Shown here: positions 5,600 to 16,991 of the stretch, piece by piece
Layout of the letters: every line of letters starts with the position of its first letter
Numbering within the stretch: the first letter of the stretch is position 1
DNA from: a virus
Length of the DNA: 30,789 bases
Virus record (IMG/VR): IMGVR_UViG_3300030106_000042
Span: 1 to 30,789 of that record
Reading direction: 5' to 3' (one strand)
The notes under the pieces: model-generated
Told to the model about the DNA's origin: nothing
Databases searched by the model: none
What the model saw: the letters and a program-made list of their open reading frames with translations, nothing else
Position numbers and translations under genes: made by a program

Positions 5600-6286
5600 A
5601 TGGCAACTTCTGGAACAACTGCATTTGATTTAGATATAGACGACATCATTGAAGAAGCATATGAGAGATGTGGTGTTAGAACTAATTCTGGTAAAGATTT
5701 AAAATCTGCAAGAAGAAGTTTAAATATTATGTTATCAGAGTGGGGTAATAGAGGTGTACATTTATGGAAAGTAGAATTAAAAGAACAATTATTAACTGCA
5801 GGAACAGCAACTTATACTGCACCTACTAATGCAAATGATGTTTTAGAGGCTTATGTAAGCACAACGACTGGAACAACCACATCTACTAATGATGTATCTT
5901 TAACTAAAATTAGTAGAAGTGAATATGCTGCATTGCCTAATAAAGGTTCACAAGGACAACCTAGTCAATATTATGTGGATAGACAAACTATTCCAACAAT
6001 TACTTTGTATCAAACTCCAGATGCTTCTACTTATACTTATTTAAAATATTATTATCTTAAAAGAATAGAAGATGCAGGAGCATATACAAATCAAGCAGAT
6101 GTAGTCTTTAGATTTATACCTTGTATGGTATCAGGTTTGGCTTATTACTTAAGTATGAAAAAAAACCCACAATTAGTACAACAACATAAATTACTTTATG
6201 AAGATGAATTACAAAGAGCTTTAACAGAAGATGGACAAAGAACTTCAGTTTATATAACACCACAAAATTATTTTCCACAAGGATAA
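5600..6286 (+). CDS. P22 gp4-like head-tail adaptor (neck) protein
   Basis: A 228-residue protein with an N-terminal motif FDLDIDDIIEEAYERCG, characteristic of the P22 tail accessory factor gp4-like family. That family forms a dodecameric ring under the portal and starts tail assembly. The helix pair with LKSARRSLNIMLSEWGNRG (about residues 34-52) and the later WKVELKEQLLTAG strand fit the family. The long C-terminal helices (FRFIPCMVSGLAYYLSMK) also match. The length is somewhat greater than P22 gp4 because of a beta insertion around residues 70-125. It begins an adaptor cluster with two small proteins immediately downstream. The call is well supported by motif, though made without a search. 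Confidence 0.75.
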   Translation: MATSGTTAFDLDIDDIIEEAYERCGVRTNSGKDLKSARRSLNIMLSEWGNRGVHLWKVELKEQLLTAGTATYTAPTNANDVLEAYVSTTTGTTTSTNDVSLTKISRSEYAALPNKGSQGQPSQYYVDRQTIPTITLYQTPDASTYTYLKYYYLKRIEDAGAYTNQADVVFRFIPCMVSGLAYYLSMKKNPQLVQQHKLLYEDELQRALTEDGQRTSVYITPQNYFPQG

Positions 6287-6289
6287 ATT

Positions 6290-6670
6290 ATGGCATACGC
6301 AAGAGGTAAATACGCAAAAGCAATATCAGATAGATCTGGTATGGCATTTCCTTACAATGAAATGGTAAAAGAATGGAATGGATCTTTTGTGCATAAATCT
6401 GAGTTTGAGGCAAAGCAACCACAAATAAAAAGAAAACACATTAAAGCTGATGCAATAGCATTAGCTAATGCAAGACCAAGACCTCCAGAAAATCAAAAAC
6501 AATTTTTACTTTATATAAGTAATGGTTTTTTCGCTAATCAAGGTGACACAGGTATAACTGGTGGAGCTAGTATGCGAGTGTCTGATAGTGATAAAATTTT
6601 AGGCACAAAATTAAATGCAGTTGAGGCAACAGTATCTGTAGGCACTAACTTTACGGTGGTAATTTCATGA
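6290..6670 (+). CDS. Conserved virion-associated protein of the neck cluster
   Basis: A 126-residue protein starting MAYARGKYAKAISDRSG and continuing FPYNEMVKEWNGSFVHKSEFE. I recognise this block from small proteins coded between neck and tail genes in many marine podo- and myophages, generally annotated only as structural or hypothetical. Two Pro-rich segments (KQPQIKRKH, ARPRPPEN) follow. The last 60 residues (GGASMRVSDSDK, VSVGTNFTVVI) look like a beta domain, so the protein may be a conserved N-terminal peg with a variable beta tail. It starts three bases after the gp4-like gene and overlaps the next gene as ATGA. The exact role is unknown. Confidence 0.6.
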   Translation: MAYARGKYAKAISDRSGMAFPYNEMVKEWNGSFVHKSEFEAKQPQIKRKHIKADAIALANARPRPPENQKQFLLYISNGFFANQGDTGITGGASMRVSDSDKILGTKLNAVEATVSVGTNFTVVIS

Positions 6671-7314
6671 GTATAACACACGCTAATTTTTTAACACAAG
6701 TAAGAAGTTATACTGAAGTAGATTCTAATGTTTTAACTGATACTCTATTAGATCAATTTATAAGAATAGTAGAATTAGATATTGCTAATAAAGTAGATTA
6801 TGATGATATAAGAGAATATGTAACTGCTGTTACTGGTACCTTGAGGTATCTTAATGTACCAGATGATTGTTTAGTAATACGTTCAGTGCAAATTATAAAT
6901 AACAGTACAAGAGATTTTTTAGAAAAAAGAGATACTTCATTTATAGCAGAATTTAATCCAACAGACGCTACTGGGCAACCAAAATACTATGCTAATTGGG
7001 ATGACAAAAATTTAGTTTTTGCTCCTATACCAGATCAAGCATATGAAATACAATTAAACTATATTAAAGACCCAGAACATTTTAATTCTACGACAGATAC
7101 TTTTTTATCTAAACATCAAGAGGCTTTGTTGTTACATGGTGTATTAACTGAGTGTTTTAGTTATTTAAAAGGTCCAGTTGATATGTACAACTTATACAAA
7201 ACCAAGTATAATGAAGAAATACAAGATTTTGCGTTGCAACAAATGGGTAGAAGAAGAAGAGCAGAGTATGATGATGGGGTTCCAAGAATACAAGTAGCTT
7301 CTCCTTCACCTTAA
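6667..7314 (+). CDS. Phage adaptor-family neck protein
   Basis: A 215-residue protein of the phage adaptor type found next to gp4-like proteins. It has an N-terminal helical segment with LLDQFIRIVELDIANKVD, then a beta section with LNVPDDCLVIRSVQI, then QLNYIKDPEHF, and C-terminal helices with HQEALLLHGVLTECFSYLKG and an Arg-rich stretch (MGRRRRAE). This helix-beta-helix layout is typical of the family, whose members are thought to join the head to the tail. It starts inside the stop codon of the previous gene (ATGA). The following fibre cluster begins 18 bases later with its own AAGGAG site. A tail-completion protein is the alternative. Confidence 0.6.
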   Translation: MSITHANFLTQVRSYTEVDSNVLTDTLLDQFIRIVELDIANKVDYDDIREYVTAVTGTLRYLNVPDDCLVIRSVQIINNSTRDFLEKRDTSFIAEFNPTDATGQPKYYANWDDKNLVFAPIPDQAYEIQLNYIKDPEHFNSTTDTFLSKHQEALLLHGVLTECFSYLKGPVDMYNLYKTKYNEEIQDFALQQMGRRRRAEYDDGVPRIQVASPSP

Positions 7315-7773: not shown

Positions 7774-7789
7774 ATAGGAGATAAGTTCT

Positions 7790-8929
7790 GTGACTACTAG
7801 AACGTTAACTATTACTGTTGTAGGTGGTAATCCTTCTAATCATCCTTATCATAATGTTGGTTCTAGTAATAAATATGCAATAGATGGTTCCACTGCTACA
7901 GCAGATGTAACACTATATTTAGCTGAAGGTGGAACTTATGTTTTTGATCAATCAGATAGTTCAAATAGTGGGCATCCATTAAGGTTTTCTACTACAGCCA
8001 ATGGTACTCATAGTGGTGGTACAGAATATACTACAGGAGTAACTGTCACAGGAGTTCCTGGTAATGCAGGTGCAAAAACCACAATTATTGTAGCTGACTC
8101 TGCTCCCACACTATATTATTATTGTACACAACATTCCAATATGGGTTGGACTGCAAACACTGTTGCAGCTACTTCTTGGGGTGTTTTATCTTGGGGTCAA
8201 GGTGCTTGGGGGGATCAAAATGACATATCGGTATCAGTTACTGGAGTTGCATCTACTACTGCTCTAGGTTCTATAACAACTGATGCTGAAATAGGAGAAG
8301 GTTGGGGTAGAGGAACTTGGGGTAATAGAGTATGGAATGGTGTTTATTCTGTTATACCCACAGGTGTAAGTGCAACAACTGCTGTTGGCAGTGTAACACC
8401 AAGCATATCAATTAGTGTATCAGTTACTGGTGTAGCATCTACCACAGCTGTAGGATCTGTAACTACAACACAAGGAGTATCTTTATCAGTTACTGGATTA
8501 CCCACTACAAGCTCTATAGGCACGATTACAGCAAATGGCACTGGAGATGTATCTGCAACTGGATTATCTCTCACAGGGTCAATAGGTTCAGTTATTATAG
8601 CTCCACTTACTATTGCAGATGCAACTGGTGTGGGTTTGACATCTAGTGTTGGAACAGCGATTACAGCTTTTGACAGTTTAGTGTCTGTTACTGGACTAGC
8701 TCTAACAAGTTCTGTAGGATCTATTACTCCTATATCCATATACTCGGTAACTGGAGTTTCAGCAACATCAGCAGTAGGTACTTCAGCAGAGGTAACAGGC
8801 ACTGGTATAGTAGATGATGTGACTGGACTAGTATTGACGAGTAATGTTGGAAGTGTAATAATAATAGCATGGAACAGAGTAGATACAGGCACACCTGTAA
8901 CCTGGACAAAAATAACAACAGCAGCGTAA
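7790..8929 (+). CDS. Tail fibre-like protein: cupredoxin domain plus VTG repeats
   Basis: A 379-residue protein starting at GTG 7790 with an AGGAG site upstream. Residues about 5-125 read as a cupredoxin beta-barrel: YVFDQSDSSNSGHPLRFS carries His62, and YYCTQHSNMGW carries Cys112, His115 and Met118. That C-x2-H-x2-M loop has the same spacing as the amicyanin-type type-1 copper site. A Trp-rich linker (SWGVLSWGQGAWG; GWGRGTWGNRVWNG) follows. Residues about 147-357 hold nine degenerate copies of a 14-residue unit near VTGVxxTTAVGSVT, separated by variable spacers. Proteins with this N-terminal block are known to me from marine phage tails. Whether copper is bound is not established. Position marks it as a tail or fibre component. 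Confidence 0.65.
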   Translation: MTTRTLTITVVGGNPSNHPYHNVGSSNKYAIDGSTATADVTLYLAEGGTYVFDQSDSSNSGHPLRFSTTANGTHSGGTEYTTGVTVTGVPGNAGAKTTIIVADSAPTLYYYCTQHSNMGWTANTVAATSWGVLSWGQGAWGDQNDISVSVTGVASTTALGSITTDAEIGEGWGRGTWGNRVWNGVYSVIPTGVSATTAVGSVTPSISISVSVTGVASTTAVGSVTTTQGVSLSVTGLPTTSSIGTITANGTGDVSATGLSLTGSIGSVIIAPLTIADATGVGLTSSVGTAITAFDSLVSVTGLALTSSVGSITPISIYSVTGVSATSAVGTSAEVTGTGIVDDVTGLVLTSNVGSVIIIAWNRVDTGTPVTWTKITTAA

Positions 8930-10738: not shown

Positions 10739-12460
10739 ATGGCAAGTAGTGGAAATTTTACTAAATGGTCTCCTTTATTTAAAGATACTAATTTAGCTTC
10801 TTTAAAAGAAGCATGTACAAGGTTTGATGGCACGACTAATGCCACGAGTGCTTTAACTGATTTTGCCATACCAGTTGGTACTAAGTTTTATGCAGAAGTT
10901 ATAGCTAAGTTAGGTAGTAATTATTACAATATTTTTGGCATAGCTCCACCAGATTTGAATTTAGCAACTTATGCTAGAAATTTAGCTAATGTATATGGTA
11001 TAGAACAAAGGACTAATCCTGGTGCGTACACAATAAATTCAATATCTAATACTACTGTTGGCTCTGATTCAAGTAGCCAAGGAGATTTAGATACACAAGT
11101 ATTAACTTATGGAATAGCAGTTAATAGAGTAGATAACGAAGTAAAACTTTATTTAGATAACACTTTAAAATTTACCTTATCTATTCCTTCTACTGGCGAA
11201 TTTCACTTTATGTGCAGTTTTACTGGTGGAAATAATGCTACATCAGTTCATTACAATTTTAATGGAGGACACGATTCTACGGGAGCTGGTGATAAAACTG
11301 CAGCAAGTAATACAGATGAAAACGGCTTCGGAGAGTTCCAGTACTCGCCACCTTCAGGTCATTTAGCCTGTTGCTCGGCTAACTTACCTACGTCATCTGA
11401 CATAGATCCTGGAGGAGATAATGGAGCAGATGAAAACCCTACTAAACAATTTGGTGTCCTTACTTATTCTGGTGGTACATCAGGTATTACAGGATTAGGA
11501 TTTCAACCAGATTTAGTATGGATTAAAAGAAGAAGTGACGCACAAAGTAATGGATTATTTGATAGTAGTAGAGGAACAAGTAAAGTTTTAAATTCTGATG
11601 GTAACAGTGCAGAAGCAACTTCTTCTGGTTTAACTTCATTTGATAGTGATGGTTATACTATGGGAACATTTTATAATCAAAGTAGTTATACTTATGTAAG
11701 TTGGTGTTGGAAAGCTAACGGAGGAACTACAGCTAGTAATGGAAGTGGATCAATAACTTCTACAGTACAAGCAAATACAAAAGCTGGATTTAGTATAGTT
11801 ACTTATACTGGTAATGATGGTTCTTGGGGTTCTGGTAATAGAGATACTTTTGGGCATGGTCTGTCGGCAGCTCCTGAGTTAATTTTTATAAAAGAAACAA
11901 ATTCAGTAGACCAGTGGACAGTTTTTCATGCTCATGTAGGCAATGGTGGTGGAAGTAATGCAGCAGCAAACAATTTAGTTTTAAATACAAGTGCTGCTTT
12001 ATATACTAATCAAAGTTATAAATCATTTGGTGAAACTATGCCTACTAGCACTTTAGTTACTGTTGAAGGTAACACTACAAATTCAAGCAGTTCTAATCAT
12101 GTAGCGTATTGTTGGCATTCAGTTGATGGCTATAGTAAGTTTGGTTCGTTTGAAGGAAATTCAAATAATGATGGTCCATTTATCTATACAGGTTTTAGAC
12201 CTAGACTATTATTTATAAAAAATATTGATAGTACAAGTCCTTGGGGTGTTTATGATGGAGAAAGACCAGGATTTAATGATTGTGATTTAGGAGCATGGGA
12301 TGAATCAACTGCACTTGATAATAATATAGGTGCTTATCCATTAGACATTTTATCTAATGGATTCAAATTGAAAACGTCAAATGCAACAGTAAACTCTTCA
12401 CATACTTGGGTGTATGGTGCGTGGGCAGACGTTCCTGCAAAATATAATAATGCTTTTTAA
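10739..12460 (+). CDS. SPRY-like plus repeated fibre-tip domains, C-terminal half of split fibre
   Basis: A 573-residue protein starting at ATG 10739 with GGGAG six bases upstream. Residues about 1-190 read as a SPRY/ConA-like domain (KFYAEVIAK, NEVKLYLDNTLKFTLSIP). A linker with FGEFQYSPPSGHLACCSANLP follows. The rest has two related units, each with LxFxPxLxxIKxxxS and a YxWCWK or YCWHSVDGYSKFG block, ending in a conserved HTWVYGAWADVP tail. Such paired units are common at fibre tips of marine phages. Placed directly after the LamG half in the -1 frame, it probably works with that protein as one receptor-binding complex. Confidence 0.7.
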   Translation: MASSGNFTKWSPLFKDTNLASLKEACTRFDGTTNATSALTDFAIPVGTKFYAEVIAKLGSNYYNIFGIAPPDLNLATYARNLANVYGIEQRTNPGAYTINSISNTTVGSDSSSQGDLDTQVLTYGIAVNRVDNEVKLYLDNTLKFTLSIPSTGEFHFMCSFTGGNNATSVHYNFNGGHDSTGAGDKTAASNTDENGFGEFQYSPPSGHLACCSANLPTSSDIDPGGDNGADENPTKQFGVLTYSGGTSGITGLGFQPDLVWIKRRSDAQSNGLFDSSRGTSKVLNSDGNSAEATSSGLTSFDSDGYTMGTFYNQSSYTYVSWCWKANGGTTASNGSGSITSTVQANTKAGFSIVTYTGNDGSWGSGNRDTFGHGLSAAPELIFIKETNSVDQWTVFHAHVGNGGGSNAAANNLVLNTSAALYTNQSYKSFGETMPTSTLVTVEGNTTNSSSSNHVAYCWHSVDGYSKFGSFEGNSNNDGPFIYTGFRPRLLFIKNIDSTSPWGVYDGERPGFNDCDLGAWDESTALDNNIGAYPLDILSNGFKLKTSNATVNSSHTWVYGAWADVPAKYNNAF

Positions 12461-16087: not shown

Positions 16088-16434
16088 CAATAAGATACAA
16101 AAATCAAGGTTATAAACAAACTGGTACAGGTAAAACTACGGTGTTTACTTGTCCTAGTGATGCGACAGTTATAGTTAAAAGTATTTACTGTGCAAACAAT
16201 GATAGTTCGTCAGCTATATTAGTTAATATGAATTTTGTAGATTCATCTGACTCAAACACAGAATATGAATTTTTTAGAGATGATGTTCCAGCTAAATCAC
16301 AAGTAAATGCTTCACCTCAAGGTTTAAACTTAGAAGCAGGTGATGCTATTACTGTGCAATCAGCTACTGGTAGTGGTAAAATACAAGGACTAATTAGCTA
16401 TGCTTTGGTTGACCGTTCTCAAGAAAATGGATAA
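16084..16434 (+). CDS. Small beta-structured virion protein
   Basis: The start chosen is ATG 16084, which overlaps the stop of the preceding gene (ATGA). A GTG at 16072 would add four residues but lies deeper in that gene. The 116-residue product opens MTIRYKNQGYKQTGTGKTTV and continues FTCPSDATVIVKSIYCANND, with a later FFRDDVPAKSQ and LNLEAGDAITVQS. It reads as one beta domain and resembles small tail- or fibre-associated proteins I know from marine phages. GTGKTT looks superficially like a P-loop but lies in a beta protein with no other ATPase motif. The 2OG oxygenase gene is coupled to its stop (TAATG). Confidence 0.55.
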   Translation: MTIRYKNQGYKQTGTGKTTVFTCPSDATVIVKSIYCANNDSSSAILVNMNFVDSSDSNTEYEFFRDDVPAKSQVNASPQGLNLEAGDAITVQSATGSGKIQGLISYALVDRSQENG

Positions 16435-16991
16435 TGCAACTTCATCAAGCTATTTTTAAAATAGAAAAAGTTATATCTAAAGACTGGTGTAAAAATCTTA
16501 CTCAATATATGGATATTGTGTGTAGGAATAAAGCAACAGTTTTAATCAACAATAAAAGAGTAGAAGATACAAAACAAAGAAATGTTTATGATTATGGATT
16601 ATCTGATCAAGGACAAGATGTTGATTATAATAAAATTTTGTCAGATGTAATTAAAGATAACATACGTCAATATTTAAAAAGTTTTACTTATTTACTAGAA
16701 CTTAAAATGGAAGGTATAAATTTACTAAAATATACTGAAGGTAATTTTTATAATACACATATTGATTCGTTTCATACTGTTAACAGACAAATATCTATTA
16801 TAATAAATTTAAACGAAAATTATGAAGGGGGAGAAATAGTTTTTATGAACCCTACTACAAGAAAACCATATAGTAAAATAGGTCTAAAAACTGGAGAAAT
16901 GCTAGTGTTTCCAAGTAATTTTATGTATCCTCATCAAGTAACAAAAATTACAAAAGGTATAAGATATAGTTGTGTCAGCTGGTGTTATTAG
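16434..16991 (+). CDS. 2-oxoglutarate/Fe(II)-dependent oxygenase
   Basis: A 185-residue oxygenase of the prolyl 4-hydroxylase-like (P4Hc/PiuC-type) fold. The iron ligands are His109 and Asp111 in YNTHIDSFH and His167 in MYPHQVTKI. Arg177 (KGIRYS), ten residues after the distal His, is the expected 2-oxoglutarate anchor. LNENYEGGEIVF and MLVFPSNFMYPH are typical surrounding strands. The enzyme would couple 2-oxoglutarate decarboxylation to hydroxylation of a protein or other substrate in the cytoplasm. Such genes are common in marine phages, with mostly unknown substrates. It is translationally coupled to the small virion protein upstream, which makes a virion protein one possible target. It is followed by a promoter, so it ends this operon. 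Confidence 0.85.
   Translation: MQLHQAIFKIEKVISKDWCKNLTQYMDIVCRNKATVLINNKRVEDTKQRNVYDYGLSDQGQDVDYNKILSDVIKDNIRQYLKSFTYLLELKMEGINLLKYTEGNFYNTHIDSFHTVNRQISIIINLNENYEGGEIVFMNPTTRKPYSKIGLKTGEMLVFPSNFMYPHQVTKITKGIRYSCVSWCY

Follow-up and report, generated by a model that had tools for sequence, protein, structure and literature searches.

The analysed stretch of viral DNA (30,789 nucleotides, hereafter the window) encodes a structural protein, P0001, whose residues 1-127 almost certainly constitute a cupredoxin-type domain similar to the blue copper proteins. Judging from the sequence, we consider it probable (about 0.7) that the domain is a metal-loaded, most probably copper-loaded, display or adhesion module carried on a fibre-like stalk, and a member of a mobile marine family. 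The fold, the conservation of the ligands, the modularity and the distribution are supported by the data described below.

Gene, protein and predicted metal ligands

P0001, a product of 379 amino acids, is encoded by an open reading frame on the plus strand, which begins with a GTG codon. The features of the gene, the protein and the neighbouring genes are as follows.

7776-7780, plus strand: Shine-Dalgarno-like AGGAG, about 9 nt 5′ of the GTG start (sequence reading)
7790-8929, plus strand: 379-residue virion structural protein P0001, consisting of an N-terminal cupredoxin-like domain, a Trp/Gly-rich linker and a repetitive beta stalk
7790-8170, plus strand: cupredoxin-like domain, residues 1-127 (AlphaFold2 pLDDT 94, cupredoxin fold matches, family alignments A1-A3)
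7973-7975, plus strand: predicted ligand His62 (GHPLRF), immediately preceding a strand, aligning with the first His of plastocyanin 1fa4; 99.6% conserved
8123-8125, plus strand: predicted thiolate ligand Cys112, at the end of strand 108-112; 99.6% conserved
8132-8134, plus strand: predicted ligand His115 (C-x2-H); 99.4% conserved
8141-8143, plus strand: predicted axial ligand Met118 (H-x2-M); 99.4% conserved
8171-8340, plus strand: Trp/Gly-rich linker, residues about 128-183, SWGVLSWGQGAWGDQ..GWGRGTWGNRVWNG (sequence reading), homologous to the start of the domain-less HTVC027P gp68
8240-8850, plus strand: beta stalk with nine TG[VL]-x-x-T-x-x-[VIL]-G repeats, spaced mostly by about 22 residues (motif positions)
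5600-6286, plus strand: neighbouring gene, whose orthologue in phage 023Pt_psg01 has an N-terminal cupredoxin domain
6667-7314, plus strand: neighbouring gene for an SU10-adaptor-like head-tail connector (PF24175, E 8.6e-19)
10739-12460, plus strand: neighbouring gene for a DUF7483 / tail-fibre-type structural protein (PF24299 and phrog_24898)

The gene neighbourhood makes it plausible that P0001 is a tail or neck fibre. The first-pass annotation had called it a phage tail protein, a designation that rests on the genes around it. The PHROG matches are either 'unknown' or 'tail fiber', those of the latter kind cover the cupredoxin-like domain itself, and no informative match was found for the rest of the protein. 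The AlphaFold2 model of full-length P0001 had low confidence (pLDDT 45) and was uninformative on the stalk. Downstream of the structural genes, at 16434-16991, the window contains a 2OG-Fe(II) oxygenase gene (phrog_61).

The four ligands proposed earlier (His62, Cys112, His115 and Met118) occupy the positions claimed for them, and their codons were located in the reading frame. Cys112 is the only cysteine of P0001, and Met118 is its only internal methionine. The C-x2-H-x2-M spacing is indeed that of amicyanin, whose PDB sequence (1AAC) reads C-TP-H-PF-M. Among the 35 predicted proteins of the window (9,691 amino acids) the motif occurs once, against an expectation of 0.0085 from shuffling.

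Conservation of the ligands in homologues had been named as a check of the prediction, and all four were found to be kept down to about 36-40% identity. In alignment A1 (30 sequences, 38-83% identical to the window) four of the six invariant columns are the ligands. The four columns were still invariant in alignment A3, to which cellular members, down to 36% identity, had been added. The ligand tally comprised 500 unique copies, 492 of them spanning all four columns: 489 of the 492 have the combination HCHM, two related copies have NSNL and one has DCHL. Across the whole domain the ligand columns take ranks 1-4 in conservation (99.4-99.6%), percentages that are biased upward because ligand residues were part of the patterns used in several of the locus searches. 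The homologues found by tblastn and the extra copies inside loci are free of this selection. Those from plain tblastn, which used no motif, retain the ligand set with the exception of the third copy in P-SSM7 (L095). When the gp9 copies were included, HCHM was present in 509 of 525, and after clustering at 60% identity in 42 of 44 clusters, the other two being a ligand-less lineage and a multicopper oxidase that also matched the profile.

In the ligand-less lineage, represented by L076 (393-695) and L236, all four ligands have been lost jointly (N, S, N and L) and the remainder of the domain has been kept, as predicted by a shared metal site. These natural copies provide a ready-made control. 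Degenerate copies lacking the first histidine were seen at 3535-3870 of L095, in which the C-H-M motif is lost too, and at about 2629 of L108 and L110; intact copies adjoin them.

His74 was considered as a candidate for the first ligand, because hhalign paired it, instead of His62, with the amicyanin histidine. It was rejected because His62 is 99.6% conserved and aligned with the plastocyanin histidine, whereas His74 is missing in about one-third of the copies.

The identity of the metal is not readable from sequence, and the open ocean contains little dissolved copper, most of it bound in complexes. Both points favour an explanation in which the fold is cupredoxin-like, copper is not the native metal and Zn, Fe or Ni serves as a structural cross-link. 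On the other side, Cys/His/His/Met is the hallmark of type-1 copper, and methionine would be unusual for Zn or Fe. We regard a metal other than copper as quite unlikely.

Predicted fold and sequence links to copper proteins

The domain alone, predicted by AlphaFold2 with 34 sequences, forms a confidently modelled beta-sandwich (mean pLDDT 94, pTM 0.87). In the model His62 precedes strand 64-67, Cys112 closes the penultimate strand (108-112), and His115 and Met118 are in the loop preceding the last strand (120-125), which is the cupredoxin arrangement. From fold and topology we infer that the four predicted ligands converge in space. The top PDB matches in Foldseek were AcoP, pseudoazurin with an engineered amicyanin loop, laccases and plastocyanin; the E value of about 0.02 and TM scores of about 0.4-0.5 for the cupredoxin matches indicate a divergent cupredoxin. 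The best match in VIA-align 2 was the cupredoxin domain of the nitrite reductase 2dv6 (Z 8.7, rmsd 2.6 over 100 residues), followed by rusticyanin, small laccases and the Nitrosopumilus purple cupredoxin. As Z scores below 8 may reflect a common arrangement, the emphasis was put on the consistency between fold, ligand positions and sequence. Structure prediction thus bore out the cupredoxin fold proposed in the first-pass annotation, with cupredoxins as the best solved matches in both Foldseek and VIA-align 2.

The same fold was found in many marine phage proteins in BFVD. Four further BFVD matches (A0A481Z6J5, A0A481YY19, A0A481YWX9 and A0A481Z7Q7; E 1e-8 to 1e-6) are 'beta-sandwich' proteins of giant viruses, namely the pithovirus and marseillevirus relatives from Loki's Castle.

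Searches of the window domain against Pfam, including PF00127 (plastocyanin/azurin, Copper-bind), and against NCBIfam, including the amicyanin family TIGR02657, gave no match. A cellular member of the family (L205) scored 25.2 bits against PF00127, above the cut-off of 21.2, and the plastocyanin family TIGR02656 matched two members weakly. Alignment by hhalign to a small cupredoxin alignment gave a single-template E value of 2e-5. The family profile aligns His62 and Cys112-His115 to the plastocyanin ligands with a weak E value (0.27); its matches in the PDB were likewise weak (E 0.1-1.2) and included plastocyanins, a copper oxidase and a pseudoazurin, and it also picked up the multicopper oxidase L563. 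A point weighing against the cupredoxin assignment is that the first ligand is followed by proline in place of the asparagine often found there. The assignment made in the first-pass annotation is nevertheless upheld by the ligand conservation, the fold matches, the score of L205 over the PF00127 cut-off and the amicyanin spacing. Two other hits were set aside: PF25489 (At5g54830-like), which matched four members and was below the cut-off where a score was shown, and an antibody, the sole phmmer match of whole P0001 in the PDB, which arose by chance on YYC.

The resemblance of the YYYC motif to the 'YYC' of immunoglobulins raises the alternative of an Ig-like (V-set) adhesion domain with an incidental ligand motif. 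An automatic annotation of P-HM1 PHM1_104 (L093) notes PF07686, BFVD labels the MED4-213 protein as an Ig-domain protein, and antibody chains occur among the weak PDB matches. However, 484 of the 500 unique copies have one cysteine per domain, which leaves no Ig disulphide, and the histidines and the methionine are conserved to the same degree as the cysteine. Moreover, cupredoxins rank above antibodies in the fold search and a member (L205) passes the PF00127 cut-off. The V-set reading, which we consider highly improbable, was discarded on the absence of the second cysteine, and the V-set annotation of PHM1_104 is probably a miscall from the YYYC motif.

The cupredoxins known to date carry electrons in solution or form part of copper enzymes. 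An alternative to be weighed is a redox-active domain with a working blue-copper centre, which would trade electrons with superoxide or the host surface in an electron-transfer or antioxidant role. The full type-1 ligand set is kept, down to the axial methionine, more than a site of purely structural function would require, and the loop has the length of that of the electron carrier amicyanin. Yet no redox partner gene is evident in the window annotation, nor is there among the annotated genes one for methylamine dehydrogenase, the partner of amicyanin, and the usual viral form of the domain is not freely diffusing, it is fused to fibres or stalks. These points make such a function very unlikely as the main explanation.

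Distribution and movement of the domain

The first-pass annotation had called such a domain on a marine phage tail unexpected; the domain is in fact widespread in marine phages and also present in cells. With P0001 as query, tblastn found 35 phage records, nearly all from marine cyanophages, pelagiphages and Methylophilales phages. A shorter query, limited to the domain, found 206 records, and a divergent cellular member 332, all matches listed for the latter being gp9 of cyanophages, the baseplate wedge / tail fibre connector. Within gp9 of S-SSM4 and of ACG-2014d the domain match is located at the C-terminus; at its start, gp9 of S-SSM4 has a T4_gp9_10_N domain. Searches of IMG/VR yielded hundreds of additional records. 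No homologue was found in the plasmid collection.

In the genome collection the domain was present in marine MAGs and single-cell genomes, some of the contigs being viral-looking. Its cellular architectures include lipoproteins of SAR86 and Woeseiaceae and a collagen-like lipoprotein of a marine euryarchaeon. The Actinomarina proteins (L199, L201, L203, L204 and L557-L560) are apparent lipoproteins, in which long Thr/Pro stalks of the type TTTTVPQTTTT carry the domain at the end. The occurrence is patchy: 7 of 39 genomes of the Actinomarina order have the domain, and so do 3 of 200 in the phylum to which the Woeseiaceae member belongs, the match in one of these three being a multicopper oxidase. 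In a proteobacterium (genome G202) two neighbouring genes (L562 and L564) encode small signal-peptide proteins with little beyond the domain; these single-domain secreted versions resemble classic periplasmic blue copper proteins. Four phage-like proteins (L172, L173, L174 and L197) have a Cys-rich, zinc-ribbon-like or related head followed by the cupredoxin-like domain.

Around the P0001 gene the window shares synteny with Pelagibacter phage HTVC027P, which contains a domain-less orthologue. This protein, gp68, aligns to P0001 only from residue 125 on, which indicates that the domain was added cleanly at the N-terminus. Phage 023Pt_psg01 has the domain at the head of the orthologue of another structural protein of the window, the product of the 5600-6286 gene. 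The domain is found in the second gene past the portal in S-TIM66, in the tail fibre in HTVC028P and Baldr, and in Bellamy in a fibre adjoining the tail sheath stabiliser and the terminase small subunit. By annotation, the proteins carrying it in hundreds of marine phage records are tail fibres, gp9 baseplate/fibre connectors and neck-region proteins, and in many cases a protein has two copies. These placements identify the domain as a mobile display module.

A conserved predicted metal site on structures that contact the host (fibres, gp9) would also suit a copper counterpart of the iron-based Ferrojan horse hypothesis, in which the domain captures copper and the phage docks on a copper-uptake receptor of the host. 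Iron-binding HxH motifs reported in fibres of T4, marine alterophages and cyanophages offer a precedent (PMC11705849). Against this, the domain is also found on neck-region proteins, far from the receptor-binding tip, and the hosts are so diverse (Synechococcus, Prochlorococcus, SAR11, Methylophilales) that a single common copper receptor is improbable. We consider docking through copper uptake unlikely, and any redox or copper-uptake role of the domain would be speculative. The binding to copper proteins on the host surface that the first-pass annotation suggested is likewise speculative.

Proposed role and comparison with known systems

In the reading that we prefer, a display or adhesion module, residues 1 to about 127 would form a cupredoxin fold with a type-1-copper-like site made up of His62, Cys112, His115 and the axial Met118, fused ahead of the repetitive, fibre-like stalk. 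The domain would pick up one metal ion, likeliest copper, either in the host periplasm or, once released by lysis, in seawater, and the bound metal would lock the beta-sandwich. The loaded domain may then act as an outward-facing adhesion or recognition module of the virion, and it would be shuffled among structural proteins as phage Ig-like domains are. We infer copper as the metal, an outward orientation of the domain and a function in host contact as opposed to electron transfer.

The distribution, as read from sequences, points to a predicted copper site on the particles of many marine viruses. A farther-reaching proposal is that functional type-1 copper centres are borne by the fibres, baseplate connectors and neck-region proteins of many phages that abound in the ocean, cyanophages and pelagiphages among them, that the bound copper or its redox state aids attachment or infection, and that virions are a pool of protein-bound copper in seawater; this is conceivable, if doubtful. 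No relevant description of cupredoxins in phage particles was found in the open-access literature, which is weak evidence of absence, and no family in Pfam, NCBIfam or PHROG describes the domain as a cupredoxin. A copper site on marine virus particles appears to be previously undescribed, the nearest idea in print being iron on phage fibres (PMC11705849). If the proposed reading is true, a large unnamed cupredoxin family exists in virus particles, common to these and to surface lipoproteins of ocean bacteria and archaea, and phages count among the potential ligands of copper in seawater. It would then be testable whether marine phages recognise their hosts in a metal-dependent way, and 'hypothetical' and 'Ig-like' labels in hundreds of phage records would be corrected.

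With amicyanin, pseudoazurin and plastocyanin (PF00127) the window domain shares the predicted cupredoxin fold, one upstream histidine, an aromatic residue two positions before the cysteine and the location of this cysteine at the end of the penultimate strand; the C-x2-H-x2-M loop, with identical spacing, is shared with amicyanin. It differs from the PF00127 proteins in lying below Pfam detection, in following the first ligand with proline (HP, where HN is usual), and in being fused to virion proteins without a known electron-transfer partner. The closest matches in structure come from single-domain cupredoxins and multicopper oxidase domains, such as rusticyanin, AcoP, the Nitrosopumilus purple cupredoxin and the small laccases (Z 7-8.7, about 100 residues). 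The identity to these is 9-18%, and P0001 has neither a trinuclear site nor an enzymatic domain.

Ig-like display domains of phage structural proteins are beta-sandwich modules that move among fibre, connector and neck proteins. The window domain belongs to a different fold family, has no disulphide and possesses a conserved set of metal ligands. The plastocyanin encoded by cyanophage petE, an auxiliary metabolic gene, serves the photosynthesis of the host as a free electron carrier. Like the predicted domain it is a type-1 copper protein from a marine phage, whereas it is not a domain of the particle.

The HxH iron fibres of the Ferrojan horse hypothesis (T4 gp37, alterophage R22Y) resemble the proposed system in having a metal site on a phage fibre, in their occurrence in marine phages and in a possible role in host contact (PMC11705849). 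The 379 residues of P0001 contain no repeated His-x-His motifs, histidine being present only at positions 18, 21, 62, 74 and 115. The HxH sites are octahedral, made of histidines only and located along the fibre (PMC11705849), whereas the predicted site of P0001 is of the Cys/His/His/Met type and resides in a separate folded domain.
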